Part shown: in pieces, positions 10,301-62,600 of the stretch
Layout: every line of letters begins with the position of its first letter
Numbering within the stretch: position 1 is the first letter of the stretch
Assembly (NCBI GenBank): GCA_905221605.1
Contig: CAJNDS010002841.1
Coordinates: 62,001 to 126,000 of the forward strand
DNA from: Symbiodinium natans
Lineage: Eukaryota; Sar; Dinophyceae; Suessiales; Symbiodiniaceae
DNA length: 64,000 bases
Direction of reading: 5' to 3'
Position numbers and translations under genes: made by a program
Notes under the pieces: generated by a model
The model's database searches: none
The model's input: the letters and a program-made list of their open reading frames with translations, nothing else
Told to the model about the DNA's origin: nothing

Positions 10301-13300
10301 ACTTACAACTGTGCGTGGGCAAACCAGCAGTGTGCTCAGGCGTTCGGAATGCAGCAAGCCGCTTGAAGGCCTCCGTTTTTCGAAGCGGTTGTGGTCATCA
10401 TTACCCGTTATTGTGTGAGGAGCTAGTGCAAGTCCTGAATATTGTGTTCAGTTGCTGACTGTTGAGGAACTGTTGTTGCATGTTGTTGCTACCGCTCCGT
10501 GCCGGTTCTGCAGCCTTGTGACTCGCTTCAGACTCACTGAGCGATTTGTTGCGGACGATCAAATCGAAGAGCTCTCCTGGCACCGAAGGGCGCTGACGGT
10601 CTCTGGGCTGAGAAGCCGTCAGGCCATCAGGACAAACCAAGCAAAAGATTCGTGAGAACACAACGATGATGACCCCTACACAATTGACGATCAACGGCAG
10701 CAGCAACAGCGACGACCACAACACTTCAACAGCGGTACATAGGCAAAAAAAGTTCATGCAGCTTCCAGCTTGGAGACACAGCTTCTCTACAAGTTCCCAT
10801 TTCATGCAGGATCTGCCCGAAGAGCAATTGTAAGCCGTATTGCGGCGGTTCTTGAAAGGGCAAGGGCAAGGTTCCGCAAGGCTTATGAAGAACATCAGAG
10901 AGAGCTGTGGCAGGTTTGGTTTCGCGCTACATCTATCTTCCGTGTGAGGCTGTACTGGCCGTGCGCACCATGAACTCACAACCACCTCAATCTCCAGTGC
11001 TCCTCCGCCAACTAACTCCATCACGAGGAAATACCAGTTGTCTGTCCTTGAGTCCACACGGGCTCTACAAGCTGAAGTCCAGGTAACATGGTCGGAATCA
11101 CTTCGGAAGCAGGCCTGAGAAGACAGAATTCCCAAACCCTTTCAGGCCACAAGCCCGGAAACATCCGGTAACCCTAACCGGGTCGATGACTCTTGAGCAC
11201 CAGCGCAGCTGCGCGCCGCAATACTGCCAAGGAACTTGTGGAACCCTTGGAGATTGACAATCCTCTCCTGAGGTCTGATTCTAGCTTTCTGGTGTTCGCA
11301 CGTTTTGGTGCTCCACGCCGCTTGGGAAGGGCGTCAACCACCCATCTGCGTTTAGCCAAAGAATGCCCCTTTCCTCACATAAAGTTGCTTCGGCCCCTTG
11401 CATGAATCAACGCGGCAACGACGGCAACCAATACGGGCAAGAACATGCATCCAAGGCGTCGGAGATGTAGTTAGATGCCGCTGAGACGCGTGTCTCAGCT
11501 CGTGGAGGATACCAACTTCGCTGTCTAAGCGTGTCATCTGGTCCTGGAGGTCGCCCAGCAGGCCTGGGCTCCAACAAGACTTTGCAAAGTCCTTACAAAG
11601 ACCTCAAGTCATCTATCTTTTTGGGCTCGATCGCGGCTCAACACCGCTCTGTGCCGCCCTGGTCCATTCTTGTCTTATTTACAACTATGAGCACCGCGAC
11701 CCTGAGAATTCTTAGTATTGTCGACCGGTAATGCCGTGATCATGTTCAAGTCCTTGTAGTGAGATCCATGACCAAAATAGCGTGCTGCGAAAGGAAAAAA
11801 CTCTAGTCTAACCTTGTTGTTGTACGTGCTTTCGGACACACCGTATCATGTCCTGCTATGCTACTGCAATGCGCAGTTGCCGGTTCTTTGGACGACGAGC
11901 AATGACAAGGTCAGATACTGGTCAGAAAGCTACGGTGGAACTTTGTGTTAAGAAATTTTATGAAGCAAGAAATTAGACTCTCGAATTGAGAAAAATAATT
12001 ATATTCAGAGTCTGAATCGCAACCCAAACGTAATTACAAATTGAATGGCCTTTTTGCAAGGCTCCAGCCCTCCAGCCCTCCAGCCCTCCAGCCCTCCAGG
12101 ATTAAGCCCTCCAGCCCTCCAGCCCTCCAGCAGCCCTCCAGCCCTCCAGCTCCAGCCCTCCAGCCCTCCAGCCCTCCAGCCCTCCAGCCCTCCAGCCCTC
12201 CAGGATTAAGCCCTGCAGGATTAAGCCCTCTTCCAGCCCTCCAGCCCTCCAGCCCTCCAGCAGCCCTCCAGCCCTCCAGCCCTCCAGCCCTCCAGCCCTC
12301 CAGCCCAGCCCTCCAGCCCTCCAGCAGCCCTCCAGCCCTCCAGCCTCCAGCCCTCCAGCCTCCAGCCCTCCAGCCCTCCAGCCCTCCAGCCCTCCAGCCC
12401 TCCAGCCCTCCAGCCCTCCAGCCCTCCAGCCCTCCAGCCCTCCAGCCCTCCAGCCCTCCAGCCCTCCAGCCCTCCAGCCCTCCAGCCCTCCGCAGGGCAG
12501 CCTTCCAGCAGGGCAGCCCTGGCTGGAGGGCTGGAGGGCTGGAGGGCTGGAGGGCTGGAGGGCTGGAGGGCTGGAGGGCTGGAGGGCTGGAGGGCTGGAG
12601 GGCTGGAGGGCTGGAGGGCTGGAGGGCTGGAGGGCTGGAGGGCTGGAGGGCTGGAGGGCTGGAGGGCTGGAGGGCTGGAGGGCTGGAGGGCTGGAGGGCT
12701 GGAGGCTGGAGGGCTGGAGGGCTGGAGGGCTGGAGGGCTGGAGGGCTGGAGGGCTTAAAAAAAACTACAGGGCTGGAGGGCTGGAGGGCTGGAGGGCTGG
12801 AGGGCTGCTGGAGGGCTGCTGGAGGGCTGCTGGAGGGCTGGAGGGCTGGAGGGCTGGAGGGCTTAATCCTGGAGGGCTGGAGGGCTGGAGGGCTGGAGGG
12901 CTTAATCCTGGAGGGCTGGAGGGCTGGAGGGCTGGAGGGCTCTGGAGGGCGGAGAAAGCAAAGGGTTGGTCAGGTTGAATAAGAAATGTTTTCAAGACTC
13001 TCGCCTCAAATCTACCTTTCTTAATACATCTGCCTGGTTAAGAAATGTCCCAGACTCTGGTGGACCTTCGAACCTTTCTTATCATAAGTTTTGACCGTAC
13101 GCCAGCACCTTCTGACGGCACTACTTCATGGCGCATGATGCCACACCTTGGGGGCATTCTTGCTGCAATTGTCCGACACATGCAGTTGAATGGCACAAGC
13201 GTCGCAGGTCCACGGCTTTGACTGCTAGCTGCTCGTTGGTGTTCCGACGCCTGGATCTGGCAGTCTTCGCTTCGACTAGGCTGACAGGCCCCAAACGGCC

Positions 13301-17649: not shown

Positions 17650-18890
17650 AGTTGTAACGTTATTCTTTGCTTACCTGTAACTTTCTGTGTTTTGCTACAT
17701 TTACTTGCTTGTAACTTCTTTTTTTGCTTACTCGTAACTTTGTCCGTGCCGTTTCCCGACGAGGGGTGCCAAAACCCTTGCTTGCCTGTAACCTTTTCTT
17801 CGGCCTCAAACTGCGAATGCTGTGAATTACAGCATATGCAGTCCGTTACAGGCTTCAAGTCTTGCAACTTGCAGTCTTGCGGGGCTTCTCGCGCTTGGGC
17901 CTTATCCCTTAGGGCTCCCGGGGGGCTTAGGGTTTAGGGTTTAGGGTTATAGGCCCCTGTCCTAACTATGGGAGGTGCCTGTCTATAGGGGTTATTAGGG
18001 CTTAGGTGTTGAGGGTTTTTTGGGGTTTAGGGCTTAAGGATTTTTAGCCCCCCCTCCCATTTGCAAACACAGCACTCGCATGATGGGTTCGAAAAAGAAT
18101 AAAGTTCGTGGTTTTTAGGGTTTAGGGGTTTTAGGGCTTAGGGATTTTTAGGGCTGAGGGTGTTTTTGGGGTCTAGGGTTTAGGGATTTTTAGCCCCCCC
18201 TCCCATTTGCAAACACAACACGCACATGATGGGTTCGTAAGAGAATAAAGCGGGGGGGTTGGGGGGTCGCAGCCCCCCCCACCCAATTTGCAAACACAAA
18301 TGCTCGCATGATGAGAACGGAAGAAACATGCCTATGTTTAGGGGCTTTTAGGGTTTAGGGCTTAGGGATTTTTAAGTTTTGGGGTTTAGGGCTTAGAGTT
18401 TTTTGGGGTTGCGGGTTTTTTTGGTTTAGGGCTCAGGGGTTCTTAGGGTGTATAGGGCTTAGGGCTTTTAGGGTTTAGGGGTTTTTAGGGTTTAGGGTTT
18501 AGGGTTTATGAAGGTTTAGCTTTTTAGTGTTTACGGCCAGGTTTTTGGGGTTTAGGCTCAGGGGTTTGAGGGTTTAGAGCGTAGGGCTTTTAGGGTTTAA
18601 GGGTTATTAGGGTTTAGGGTTTCGGGCTTTTGAGGTTTAGGGCTTTGGGTTTAGGGCCAGGTTTTAGGGTTTAGGGTTCAAGGGTGTTGAGGGTTTAGGG
18701 TTGTTGGGGTTTAGGGTTTTTAAGGATTTAGGGTTTAGGGGTCTTTAGGGTTTAGGGGTTTTTTGAGTTTGATTGGGGTTGACCCAATTCCCTTATATTT
18801 ACTGCGTGTGCCAACAGTCCAGGTACCAAAAGTCACGACTAAGCAAAAACAAAAGTTACAACTAAGCAAAAACAAGTTACAACTACCCTA
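17650..18890. repeat. TTTAGGG-like block bracketed by inverted GTAAC/TTGC motifs
   Basis: From about 17925 to 18775 the plus strand is dense in imperfect GGGTTTAGGG units. Inside are three copies of a 55-60 bp element (18046-18105, 18192-18250, 18271-18325) running from a C-tract through TTGCAAACACA to an ATGATG-type end. The left flank (17650-17800) has three or four copies of TTGCTTACTTGTAAC-like words. The right flank (18838-18890) has the same word reverse-complemented (GTTACAACTAAGCAAAAAC) twice. No gene seen. Confidence 0.8.
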
Positions 18891-49989: not shown

Positions 49990-52490
49990 TCTTGCAAGGT
50001 CTTGGCCTTTACAGGGCCTTGTTGATGAGCCTCAGATACCACACAGTCAAAGTATGCCAGGTTGCTTATTGCAGGCTTCCCCTGAGCTACGCAGAACAGC
50101 AGATGAACTTCAATGCTGCCACCTGACGGTTGGAGAACGATTGAAATGAGGCAAAAACTGAGAAACTCACAAACCATCCACTGATTCCCTTAAACCGGTG
50201 TCCTGTGAAAACATCTCGAAGAAGCCAAGTCAAATAGGAGCCGTTGACATCTCCCGGCTCGCCACTTCTCCATGACTTGACCAAGCTGCGCATGTGGTAG
50301 ACCTCAACGTGCAAAACGTTCAACAACTTGGCGACTGCGAATGAAAAGAAAACAAATCAAGGCAACACCAAAACTAGCAGTCTGTGCAGTCTGTGCAGTC
50401 TGTGCAGTCTGTGCAGTCTGTGCAGTCTGTGCAGTCTGTGCAGTCTGTGCAGTCTGTGCAGTCTGTGCAGTCTGTGCAGTCTGTGCAGTCTGTGCCTGGC
50501 GGAATTTTCGGCCGGGAAGCCCCTCTGTAGCGGTCATAGCCTTCACGAAGCTGGACAAGACCCTTATCCTCGCAGGAATGAATGAACGAACCAAGTCGAT
50601 GTACATTCGATGTGCTCTGGCAAGGATCACAGGCTCCTCTGCCAAACAATCCATGACTGCTGATTCCAGAAGAACAAAGCGTCCGTGGAGACCCCATCCC
50701 TCGTAGTAGTCTGCCTAACAAGGCTTCATTTCGAACGAGCTGCCTTGACAATTTCGTGTGCCTGGCTGCCTGGGTGACATCCATGATGAAAACAGTGCTT
50801 CCTTGATGTCGCTTCTCTGGATCTCGACGTCTTTGGGCAGCTTCAATGTACTTCATGAACTCCTTGGACATGGCGTCCAAGAATCACAGGCAAATCATGA
50901 ACAAGACAAGCACTGCAAATTGCCCACAGATTCCGAGAGCCCACCCACTCAGCCCTGCTTTCATACCAGCAACATCAGCAGATGTAGCGCTGGCAGTTCG
51001 CACACCTGAGAAACGGCACTTGTTGACTTCATCAGTTGAAGGACGCCGTGACTTCGTGATAAGCTCATGCAACGTTCCAATGGGCCTTCGACCACTACAC
51101 CTTGTGGTAAGTCCATCAACCGTGCAGCTTCTGGAGAATCGGCAAGAAGGTCCACAATCGTGTCACCAACAAGTTGAAAACACTGCAGCCTTCAAAGAAA
51201 GCACACTGCCCATGAAACTGCATCTTCGAATCTTCACATGTATCAAGAACCACTGCAGAGTAATTCTGCCTCATATGGAAAGTGTATCCAACAGCCCCGT
51301 TGGCACGATGACTGACCTGCCCGCGTGAGATCGTAAATATTGTGACTCGATGCGAACTACCTCCCGCAATGCAAAATGCAAAATGCGAAGGTAAACATCT
51401 GTCTGAAAGGTCTGCAATGGAGAGCAAACTGCACCCTCCAGCTTGCTGAGAAAGCCCCACATGACATTGTGTGCTTTTGTCTTAAGAGATCGTCATGGGC
51501 CCAAACTGCCTGGCGCTCATGCAACTCCGAGGCCAGCTGCCACACCGACGCCGCTGCAAGCCCTTCAGCTCCATCCATCAAGTCGCCCTGGGGCCAAGTT
51601 ACTTTGGCTTAGCAAGTGTCGCCCCACAAAACATTGCTCTCTTCCAACAATGCCTGCGCTCCATCAGTAACACCCGCCACAAGCAGAACAGCATCTGTAC
51701 CTCAGTTTCGCAAATGGGAAAGTGGCGTGCTCGCAAGAGTGTGATGAAACATTGCACCTTGGGCCCCTTGCCGTTCAATACAGCTTCCAATGTTGGAGCT
51801 AAATCGCACATGATCACATCCTCACGACTCAACAAGCCGACAGATGGACATACATGGACGTTGTCCATGTACTCAACGCCGACTAACGCTCTCTGCAAAA
51901 CGCGTTTGCTAGATCCAATATCCTCGTTCGTGGAATCAGGGCCATGGACCATATCTGCACGAAACTCCCTGGGCGCATGGGTTGCATGAGGATACGCTGC
52001 ACTACGATGCTCTGATCTCGGCACTGGCAATTCACTGAAACATCCGACCTGGCCCGCAAAGCTTTCGGATCTTTGACTTCCACAAGGGTGCCCACTGCAA
52101 TGACATCCGGACTTTTCTCGGCATAATCCTCATCACGATGTGCAGAACTCTCCAGAGATGGAAACAAAACCGCAGAGGAACACCCAAAAAAATCTACGAC
52201 TTTTCCTGTTGACCTCTTGGTTGTTCGGCAACTGTTTCGAATCGAATGGGAAAACAATAACCGAACGGAATGTGCACGGTTTAAACGGCAGATGGTCTGT
52301 CCTGCCATTCTTCGTCCCACACCCAGGGCGACCCAATTTTGACGGAACATCGCACCTGAAAAAAGGTCATGCGCCCAAATTCGTCTTAGTGCTTCGTTAG
52401 CCATTGGGGCAAGCTCCTTGGAAGGCTTCAACAAGGCATCATCCATGCAGCGCGCGTCCCGAGCTACAACAATGCTTTCAGAATAACATA
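49990..52490 (-). CDS. Exons of an unidentified globular protein, possibly the 5' part of the coiled-coil gene
   Basis: Minus-strand protein-like segments: about 52375-52480 (MDDALLKPSKELAPMANEAL), about 52050-52125 (DYAEKSPDVIAVGTLVEVKD), about 51855-51960 (DSTNEDIGSSKRVLQRALVG), about 51470-51581 (MDGAEGLAAASVWQLASELH), about 50815-50880 (MDAMSKEFMKYIEAAQRRRD), 50500-50654 (AHRMYIDLVRSFIPARIRVL) and about 50175-50326 (DVNGSYLTWLLRDVFTGHRF). The middle ones are mixed alpha/beta in character. Several two-frame ambiguities remain (for example at 51.9 kb) and no family motif is clear. It runs in the same direction as, and directly upstream of, the coiled-coil exons, so it may belong to that gene. 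Confidence 0.45.
50378..50494. repeat. 9-bp minisatellite, unit CAGTCTGTG
   Basis: About 13 perfect copies. A 9-nt unit without stops leaves several frames open. On the minus strand it continues the frame of the exon at 50500-50654 as an (AQT)n peptide. Confidence 0.95.
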
Positions 52491-59281: not shown

Positions 59282-59432
59282 TTATTGTCTAGGGTTTATA
59301 GGGCTTAGGGAGTTAAGGGTTTAGGGTCTTAAGGCCCTAAACTCTAAGCCCTAAACCCTAAGGCCCTAAAGTTAGGCCCCAAGGTCGCCCTAAACCCTAA
59401 ACCCTAAACTCCTAAACCCTATAGGCCCTAGA
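59282..59432. repeat. Telomere-like block with a strand switch
   Basis: AGGGTTTAGGG-type units run to about 59326, then switch directly to CCCTAAAC-type units through 59430. The junction GGTCTTAAGGCCC is close to a perfect palindrome. Confidence 0.85.
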
Positions 59433-59697: not shown

Positions 59698-62600
59698 TCA
59701 CAGTCGCCGTCGCCGTCGCCGTGGTGCCCGTGGGGGGGCTCCGGCTCCGTCGGCGGCTTCGGGTTTTGCTGCGTCGCCTTCGCCTGCATTGCATGCCCAA
59801 ACACATGGCCCAAACCCAGATAGCATCACAATCACAATCACAAGAATCACAATCAATTTCAATCAATGTCAATTCAATCAATGGACTCGTCGACTCGACT
59901 CCAACCGGCTGCAGCCCGGCCTCCCCGAGTCGGAACTTGGCACGCTTGCTACTTGGCTGCTCCGGGTCGTCCTGATCATCCTTACCCTGATCTGCTCCGC
60001 CGCCGCCAGAGGCAACTCCGGCACCGGCACTGCCAAAGGCAAACGCAAGAGCCATAGCCTCAGATGTGGAAGGAATCGAAGGCTGAGGCTGAGGGGATTG
60101 AGGGGATGAAGGCTGATGAAGGCTGACGGCTGAAGTGCTGAAGGGTTTGTTTTGCACACTTCTGCACTGCAAGACTGGGTCGTACGATGCCTAACCCCAA
60201 TTCTGCTCATTCTGCTCTGTGGACACGTGCACATCGCTTCGGTTTCTTCTGTCACCTGCAACGGAAGCCCAACCTACCCTGGATTTCTGCCTCCAAGCCT
60301 CCAAGCCCGCAAAACCGGAAACAGTAGACGCAGGCGGCAGAACAAACACCAGAACTCCAAACTCTAAACCCAGCCATCCCCCGACTCCGAGCTGGCAAAC
60401 CTTGGATTCTTGGATATTCCCCCCTCCCAACCCTACAACAAGCGCGCACAAAGGGTGTAACGGTAAACCAGCAAGCCCCTGCAACACCTTTAAGGTTTAG
60501 GGTTTATAGGGTTTAGGGTTGATTAAGGTTGAGTTTAGAGTTTAGGGTTTAGGGTTTATAGGGTTTGGGTTTAGGGTTTAGGGCCAGGCTTGGCCGCAGG
60601 CGGCCGCAGGACTTTCTGTTTTCTCCGCTGCGCAAAAGGTTGCTATGCTGATGATGCCGCCTGCCACCTGATGCCTGACACCTGACACCTGACCCATATA
60701 AATATATAATGCCCAGAATGCGCCAATCCAAGTAATCCATACCATATCCCCCCGTGACCCCGTGTCAGCGCAGCAGCGGCATGCGCGCCCAAAAGTTTCA
60801 GCTGAGGCTGAGGCTGAGACTGAGTTTCCGCTCGTGGCTCGTGGCCCCGAACAAATCAGGGCTTATAGGCTTACAGGCCAGGCTTTTAGGGTTTAGGGTT
60901 TAGGGTTTAGGGCCTTAGGGTTTATAGGGTTTAGGGCTTAGGGCCAGGCTTAGCCTTAGCCTTAGGTTTTTGAGTTGAGCAGGACTGCGGGACTGTACGC
61001 TGTAGGACCGTCTCTAGGACTAGGACTCTAGGAACGGTTGACTGTAGGCTAGGCTGCAGGACTGTACGCTGTAGGACCGTCTCTAGGACTAGGACTCTAT
61101 AGGAACAGGAACGGTTGACTGTAGGCTAGGCTGCAGGGTGAAGGAATTGGCCATCCTCTCAGACTCGCAGCCTCAGACTAACGCCACTATTGCCCGCAGA
61201 CTCGCAGCACGCTAAACCCGTGTGGGACATGCAGTGACAAGCAAGCCGCGGGCAAGCCGGCAGCCCGGCAGCCAGCCAGCTCAGCCAGCTACTACTGCTG
61301 CCACTACTGCAGCACTGCAAACTACGAACTGGCTTGAGGTTAGGGTTTAGGTTTAGGGCTTAGGGTTTAGAGTTTAGGGTTTTAGGGCTTATAAGGGTTT
61401 AGGGTTTAGTTTAGGGTTTCGAGTCTAGAGTCTAGATTGTAGGGCAGTTTAGGAAAGTTTCGGGTTTAGGAGTTTGGGAGTGTAGGGCAGTGGCGGCATT
61501 GTAGTGTAGGGCTTAGGGTTTAGGATGAAGGGCTACGAACTTCTACGAACTACGAACTGTACGAACTACAAAACATTGGGCCTTTGCCCAGCTCGGCCCA
61601 GCCCGGGCCCTGGCCGCTGTGGCACTGTGGCCTGCGGCTCGGCCAGCACCCGATCCGATCATCACCCGGCCATCTCCGAGTCTCCGAATTCGAATCTCCG
61701 TCACTCAGCACTCAGCCCTCAGCGGGACTCTGGGCTCTGGCCTCTGCCCAGCCTGGCCAGCTCAGACTGGATGCACTCCTTGAAGCACGAATCCTGCTGC
61801 TCGAGGGCCACCCGCGCGGTCTTGAAGACTCGGATAATCTCGTGGTCGTGGCCGGGCAAGAACGCCGTCTCCTCCATCTCGGTCAGAAACGTCGCCGCTT
61901 CCCTGGCCAGTTTCATTGCATCAACCAGCTTGGAAAGAGGCCCGCCGATGAGCGCTGTGTTGACTGTCCCAGGCGATGGCGACGATGACGGCACTGGCTC
62001 GGTCTCGAAGGACATCGACCAGTGTACGCCAGTCATTTGCTGGAACTCGCCGTCGGGCTGCATGGTTTTGAGCATTTCGTGTATGGCCTGCGCCGTCATG
62101 GCCGAGGCTTGGCCATGGTCACAACACAACGAAAGCGAGGGATGAGACAAGACAAGGCAGGGCCGAACAAAACTGGCTGCGCGGCGAGAAGTCGACATGT
62201 CGAGTTGTCGAGAAGGGCGGGAAGGGAGCAACTTGGCCCTTGACTCCCTTGACTCCCTTGGCCCTTGACCCCTTCCTAATCTCGGAGAATGGATTAACAG
62301 TTTCACTTGATCTGAATCTGAATCGATTGCTCCGAGAAACATTCTTGTTCGTCTGCTTCTTTGCCTCCATTTCGGCTCTTTTGGCTGTCGACAGCGCCGC
62401 CTTTTTCGGAGCTGCGGTGGATGAAGTCGAAGAAGAGGCAGGGGCCCTGGCGGCCCTAGCAGCCTGGCAGTGGCAGAGGATGGCAACTGACAACTGGCAA
62501 CTGGGACTTGGGACAGGGACTTCAACTTCAACTGTCAACAGTTTCAAGTTTCAACAGCAGCAATGTCAGGCCAGAACAATATTATAGTAACAATGTGACT

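Follow-up and report, generated by a model that had tools for sequence, protein, structure and literature searches.

A palindromic minisatellite in a kinase intron of Symbiodinium natans as the probable interior of a foldback-like transposon with a TA target duplication

In the element Tm1 of root-knot nematodes, a member of the Mutator/Foldback group, the foldback arms have been called hot spots of ectopic recombination (PMC3169594), and for Tetris, a foldback-like element of Drosophila virilis, a relationship to Mutator has been suggested by its authors from target duplications of 8–10 bp (PMC4079207). Here we analyse a palindrome of 8-bp tandem repeats in a 64,000-nucleotide stretch of the genome of the dinoflagellate Symbiodinium natans (positions 62,001 to 126,000 of contig CAJNDS010002841.1, assembly GCA_905221605.1), which we call the window and in which all positions without a contig name are counted. 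The palindrome very probably forms the middle of a foldback-like DNA transposon, young and non-autonomous, which has entered the intron of a kinase gene at a TA. The element has short imperfect terminal inverted repeats (TIRs; CGGT...TAAGAAA) and dissimilar unique ends of 123 and 155 bp, with a TA at each outer edge. We base this reading on the conserved TIR-bearing ends, the 2-bp duplication, the 34 copies found at 33 sites, a reading frame that one of them interrupts, and the two-arm interior common to the copies.

Each of the closest described systems shares some of this layout. As in Tm1, inverted arms made of variable numbers of short tandem repeats (13–15 bp in Tm1) are unequal within and between copies, and dissimilar terminal motifs lie outside the inverted repeat; unlike Tm1, where these motifs measure 7 bp and the family has a Mutator-type transposase, the ends here, of 123 and 155 bp, include a short true TIR, the target duplication measures 2 bp and no transposase was found (PMC3169594). 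Tetris is likewise non-autonomous and foldback-like, with tandem repeats in its arms, many rearranged forms and no autonomous copy found, but its units are about 220 bp and its duplications 8–10 bp, against 8 and 2 bp here, and its repeats have seeded long satellite arrays whereas the present repeat is almost wholly bound to the element (PMC4079207). Galileo, a foldback-like element of the P superfamily, shares dynamic inverted repeats, the recruitment of non-TIR sequence and, in one D. willistoni copy, internal tandem repeats within the inverted repeats; it differs in its 7–8 bp duplications, its long TIRs and its transposase-based classification (PMC4168063). The BrickBuilt miniature inverted-repeat transposable element (MITE) of Porphyromonas gingivalis also combines a minisatellite interior with a leader, a tail and small inverted repeats at its ends, but it is bacterial, its 23-bp units form a plain tandem array and a palindrome is unmentioned in the abstract (PMC4596501). 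Finally, the introners of the dinoflagellate Amoebophrya are repeated intronic sequences with inverted repeats and short direct repeats, but they define the ends of their introns, whereas the element here is shorter than the intron that holds it and at another site disrupts an exon (PMC7789003). Among the matches listed from open-access titles and abstracts, a scope that leaves subscription papers mostly outside, no dinoflagellate element of this kind is described.

An earlier note on the window had described some 50 copies of an 8-bp unit followed, after about 30 bp, by some 50 opposed copies. Tandem Repeats Finder agrees, giving 53.5 copies of CTCCAGCC and 53.0 copies of GGCTGGAG separated by 29 bp. 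All 73 occurrences of the 14-mer AGCCCTCCAGCCCT in the window (34 on the plus and 39 on the minus strand) fall within the palindrome stretch, and 100 dinucleotide shuffles yielded none. The palindrome itself, placed by the note at 12053..12945, is thus real (12062–12954), but it is the middle of a larger element that spans 11931–13099. The strong RNA hairpin foreseen for it is also borne out by prediction: read on the minus strand, the stretch folds with −999.8 kcal/mol against a mean of −579.7 kcal/mol for 20 shuffles (z −47). Scans of the window with Rfam and for tRNA genes gave no matches.

We searched the genome (759 Mb in 2543 contigs) for further copies, which are named below by contig number. 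At six other places with arrays the flanking sequence is that of the window, at both ends in four cases and at the right end only in two; an array on C700 (L013), with a few units and neither end, was excluded as a copy. The search with the left end found at least 35 ends at 98–100% identity and five diverged ends at 85–89% (40 of 49 candidates scored), and that with the right end at least 35 at 99–100% and five at 85–92% (40 of 56 candidates scored). We read 34 complete copies of 423–2567 bp (median 906), besides partial loci on C574 and C1935 (both with the right end only) and at C2339:147 (truncated by the contig end). The copies on C2045 and C1292 are a single duplicated locus, with 1000 of 1000 flanking bases identical on each side, which leaves 33 sites. 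In all 34 the 8-bp unit starts the interior at the left end and its complement closes the interior at the right end. Conversely, 1033 of the 1141 genome matches of a 24-mer of the repeat fall inside these copies and 18 more in the partial copies on C574 and at C2339:147; no large free-standing arrays, such as would mark satellite DNA, were seen, the placement of the 90 remaining matches being incomplete. The 8-bp repeat is hardly a free satellite and is nearly confined to the element family. Beyond this genome, viral contigs did not contain an exact 46-mer taken from the right end, and the right end had no match in plasmids.

The outer 25 bases of the two ends, TA included, form an imperfect inverted repeat (19/25 identical, ungapped), and a 25-mer pattern covering both forms has 103 genome matches at up to two mismatches against none for the reversed control. 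The two ends also share six same-strand 8-mers, around TTAAGAAA and AGACTCTC, where letter shuffles share 0.40 (p 0.0015); these may be candidate transposase-binding sites. A related end, TACGGTCGAACTTTATGTTAAGAAA, was seen at C1783:486800-488950 (L073), with a similar layout of motifs by eye and no array, and may belong to an autonomous partner or to a sister family.

TA stands on either side of 33 of the 34 copies and CA on either side of the remaining one (C2006), which speaks for a copied target rather than for element sequence. No duplication longer than 2 bp was seen by eye in the flanks of 29 copies. The base following the right TA is C or G at 30/34 sites, and by a bare count 16 of 29 copies have TTTAGGG or CCCTAAA no more than 150 bp away. 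At the C2067 site, joining the flanks with one TA restores an open frame of at least 354 amino acids. Of the 11 database proteins that it matches, five are named Symbiodinium; the best match is 75% identical across 97% of the query and aligns without a gap through the insertion point. A paralogue of this frame on C2345 is likewise uninterrupted across that point. Among the 29 of the 34 copies whose flanks measure 200 bp or more on each side, this kind of spanning frame (at least 150 codons) is found at one site, compared with 7.8% of control positions, and nothing points to a preference for coding exons.

TIRs conserved between copies and a target-site duplication, as in a non-autonomous, MITE-like TIR transposon, are both present, and the copies read as ends plus arrays without a transposase gene, a reading made without profile searches of the interiors. 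In the five of 34 copies richest in foreign DNA, 22 frames reach at least 70 codons, and the 10 longest of them have a low-complexity or repeat-like appearance. Duplication of a TA target is the defining trait of the Tc1/mariner (IS630) superfamily and is found here, but placement in that superfamily stays a lead because no transposase was found. Long, variable inverted arms of tandem repeats, the hallmark of foldback elements, are present in 34/34 copies. We do not file the element in the Mutator foldback group, because its arms do not reach the termini, from which the dissimilar unique ends of 123 and 155 bp separate them, and because the duplication is 2 bp rather than the 8–10 bp of an element such as Tetris. 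It is best described as a foldback-like element with an unusual layout.

Profile searches of the genome gave 19 matches to DDE_3 (PF13358) and 27 to DDE_1 (PF03184). Transposase_1 (PF01359) had none, and likewise none in the control genomes, so that its absence is uninformative. None of the 46 DDE matches shares a contig with the TIR matches listed, which are the first places of the 103, and no TIR-like sequence was found at up to six mismatches near the 12 of 19 DDE_3 loci that were fetched. DDE_3-like frames of about 230–630 amino acids occur on C1056, C1535, C2105 and C2205, many spaced about 3.5–3.6 kb apart as if in tandem arrays. DDE_1-like frames also occur in series, about 6.3 kb apart at C2292:216781-236085 and mostly about 10 kb apart at C855:9384-51958.

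The ends of the copies are nearly constant. Over 265 bp compared in 31 of the 34 copies (C1292, C2091 and C2006 left out), they differ by 0.73% on average and by 1.9% at most, and 46 of 465 pairs are identical. No two copies, the duplicated locus aside, have the same total length or the same length of interior; the smallest interior has 7 + 9 units and the largest copy reaches 2567 bp. Exact blocks of at least 50 nt that are rich in unit variants are shared in the same orientation by 42/528 pairs of copies and in inverted orientation by 28/528; for example, 259 nt of the left arm of C761 recur inverted in C2023. A core of at least 14 nt between the arms is in forward orientation in 12 of the 34 copies, inverted in three and in neither state in 19, the window copy among them. 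Nested palindromes are found in C2332, C2339 and C1191, and in C1191 31 bp of the right end recur internally in inverted orientation; foreign DNA was recognised by eye inside C2143, C1812, C496, C2091 and C2514. We also compared the arms within each copy by permutation, using 27 of the 34 copies (without the duplicate C1292, the nested C2332, C2339 and C1191, and C2143, C496 and C1812 with foreign DNA). Their similarity is slightly above expectation (0.060 versus 0.038, p 0.0196), an excess that allows some exchange between the arms of one copy. At the level of the family, exchange between arms is supported by the inverted blocks between copies, the inverted cores, the nested palindromes and this slight excess.

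The insert of C2143 is composed of dispersed repeats (525 matches), and we have therefore lowered the idea that capture of host DNA is a special function of the element. Both ends of this foreign stretch adjoin in the opposite order at C2089:542145-542405 and at C47:36885-37158, as if circularly permuted.

We propose that such interiors most likely arise as follows. A transposase encoded elsewhere would recognise the ends, cut there and insert the element at a TA. The inverted minisatellite arms would pair when single-stranded or extruded, as a hairpin or cruciform, and slippage, template switching and recombination between arms and between copies would then rewrite them, as the inverted blocks, flipped cores and nested palindromes suggest. 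The outcome would be flips of the core, swaps of arm blocks, nested palindromes and the entry of other DNA, while the ends would stay fixed, being needed by the transposase and belonging to copies that are young. A variant compatible with this explanation is that the interior is rewritten mainly at transposition, when the gap left by excision is repaired from another copy and two-ended synthesis errs in the repeats. We consider this variant possible, though we lean against it as the main route. It would account for ends that are kept while the centre is altered at each separate site, for the foreign DNA recognised in five copies and for blocks common to copies on different contigs in both orientations; slippage and recombination between arms would give the same end products without excision, and nested insertion explains the dispersed repeats in C2143 equally well.

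The two-arm interior is not confined to the young copies. Seven diverged older copies were read, with ends about 83–97% identical over the aligned parts. By eye, both arms are kept, at least as remnants, in C125, C2238, C1829 and C1966; C2256 and C1739 have almost no arms, and C2067:775814 has no recognisable array. Since several diverged copies have arms, the two-arm interior seems older than the present burst of copies. Long palindromes are generally unstable, yet all 34 young copies read retain theirs; on a bold and rather unlikely reading the palindrome may benefit the element, for example by folding so as to bring the two transposase-binding ends together at any length of the interior.

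A second dispersed palindromic minisatellite was observed in the same genome. It has a 21-bp unit, ACCTTGCCCGCTAAATATATG, and at C2514:225955-227694 and the loci L092, L093 and L094 forms three alternating arrays (+,−,+). A 45-mer of this family has 179 forward and 154 reverse genome matches (control 0); its arrays sit between a G-rich tract and a run of TTTAGGG and are nearly alike in the three loci aligned. A similar three-array palindrome with a related unit, GGCCTTGCCCACGAATATTTG, adjoins the insertion on C2528 (L053:2230-2640). On the same bold reading, the existence of this second family suggests that the palindromic-minisatellite design arose more than once.

As the earlier note had it, the intron that holds the window copy belongs to a kinase gene, and the exons named in the note fit. 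On the minus strand, pieces recognised by eye carry a glycine loop, AVK, EVGILHELRH, VMEL, HRDLKPEN and DFG. The pieces 13454–13398, 13280–13195, 11563–11490 and 11267–11232, joined with four further conserved pieces, match the protein kinase profile PF00069 with E 1.3e-23, the joins having been picked by eye. When six stop-to-stop frames were scanned singly, PF00069 was detected in one of them, that with HRDLKPEN, at E 4.9e-4, below the cut-off; a ninth piece, looked for with one given string, was not found. The intron exceeds the element (counted with one TA) by 464 bp. It is improbable that the hairpin is a functional device of the intron, drawing the splice sites close to each other or feeding double-stranded RNA into a small-RNA pathway, or that the element is an introner. 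The predicted RNA fold would suit such a role, and the short inverted repeats of Amoebophrya introners have been proposed to draw exon ends close to each other (PMC7789003). Against it, the element ends do not coincide with the intron ends at the kinase locus, the one locus at which this was checked; by eye, the ends TACGG...CCGTA offer no standard splice sites for exact removal; at C2067 the element interrupts a coding frame; and sites in long frames are not enriched.

More improbable still is an origin of the palindrome on the spot. Taking the arms for a near-perfect palindrome with mirrored interruptions, the earlier note had proposed that one was copied from the other, for example by snap-back (hairpin-primed) synthesis, a proposal now largely refuted. 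In a global alignment the arms are 82% identical (401/490 columns), so that they are no exact mirror, and their unit strings clearly differ in order and kind. When the right arm's 48 units were put in random order, 20 of 200 such shuffles scored at least as well as the real arm-to-arm alignment, which leaves the mirroring no better than chance. A rare interruption does occur in both arms, GGATTAAGCCCT being found three times in the left, twice in the right and, at up to one mismatch, nowhere else in the window; it is not private to this locus, for GGATTAAG, which is present in both window arms and in that respect favours snap-back, is found in one or both arms of at least 23 of the 34 copies (counted from the table of copies). 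Local copying also draws some support from the similarity of the window's left arm to its own right arm, the highest among 27 right arms (Jaccard 0.25, tied by the right arm of C2116 at 0.25), and from C1191, which shows that inverted copies extending into a unique end do occur in the family. But the left arm shares exact blocks of 176 nt with the left arm of C2067 and of 155 nt with that of C2356, with the interruptions in order, and the right arm has 97 nt in common with the right arm of C206. Between the window's own two arms the longest variant-containing block measures 148 nt and consists almost wholly of standard units, and a variant-rich inverted block is absent. Because the blocks are shared with same-side arms of other copies, and the same layout of ends and two arms is found in all 34, the window arms most likely arrived with the element, already as arms. 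Long inverted repeats are a known trouble for sequencing, but an assembly or long-read foldback artefact, which the note had itself raised, is scarcely credible, since a foldback would mirror its own flank, whereas distinct unique ends are paired here at 33 sites, each with its own surroundings, and the duplicated locus on C2045 and C1292 returns the same interior.

Several observations weigh against the transposon explanation or against the rewriting proposed with it. No transposase could be tied to the element ends in the genome searches with PF13358, PF03184 and PF01359. The proof by an empty site rests on one locus, C2067, and there the protein P0002, highly similar upstream, loses its likeness to the restored frame shortly before the insertion point. 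Arm-to-arm copying inside one copy is not directly seen, flips and exchange between copies being what is observed: a variant-rich inverted block within a copy was found in 1/33, C2514 only, where it lies in the foreign 21-bp array. The duplicates C2045 and C1292 differ by one mismatch in 423 bp, located in the right end, and are identical inside, so that no turnover is visible at that scale. The mechanism of rewriting, lastly, is read back from its end products and stands as a proposal.

Table 1. Position of the element, its parts and the adjoining kinase exons in the window.
Feature	Position	Strand	Basis or remark
Entire insertion including both TA, 1169 bp (element proper 11933–13097)	11931..13099	+	both ends recur in other copies
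TA target-site duplication, left	11931..11932	.	other copies
TA target-site duplication, right	13098..13099	.	other copies
Left TIR CGGTGGAACTTTGTGTTAAGAAA, imperfect	11933..11955	+	TIR pattern search
Right TIR CGGTCAAAACTTATGATAAGAAA	13075..13097	−	TIR pattern search
Left unique end, 123 bp	11931..12053	+	98–100% identical in other young copies
Right unique end, 155 bp	12945..13099	+	99–100% identical in other young copies; part lost in C2091 and C2006
Left arm	12062..12491	+	about 53 units of CCAGCCCT
Spacer, 29 bp	12492..12520	.	without the core of about 50 bp found in other copies
Right arm	12521..12954	−	about 53 units of CCAGCCCT on the minus strand; shares its final bases with the right unique end
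Host intron, 1631 bp, GC donor and AG acceptor	11564..13194	−	kinase joins by eye
Kinase exon with AVK motif, directly upstream of the intron	13195..13280	−	joined pieces match PF00069
Kinase exon with EVGILHELRH, directly downstream of the intron	11490..11563	−	joined pieces match PF00069

Elsewhere in the window we noted degenerate telomere-like arrays of TTTAGGG or CCCTAAA at 18336–18770, 59330–59421, 60489–60945 and 61340–61445; these arrays are internal to the contig, in which the window begins at 62 kb. At 50377–50495, GCAGTCTGT is repeated perfectly in tandem (13.2 copies, 100%).

In place of a single puzzling palindrome, the transposon explanation gives a mobile family whose ends are near-constant, with a mean difference of 0.7%, and whose interiors differ at every separate site. 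The 33 insertions amount to a natural experiment on the mutation of long inverted repeats, each with its own outcome, be it expansion, inversion of the core, a swap between arms, a nested palindrome or the uptake of other DNA. The family also shows, in a dinoflagellate, a foldback-like design combined with a TA duplication, apart from the Mutator context in which such designs are usual. That dinoflagellates harbour a class of transposons with a self-rewriting inverted minisatellite as its middle is a bolder and rather unlikely proposition. If it were true, constant flipping, expansion and uptake of other DNA would be the price that such an element pays for its palindrome.

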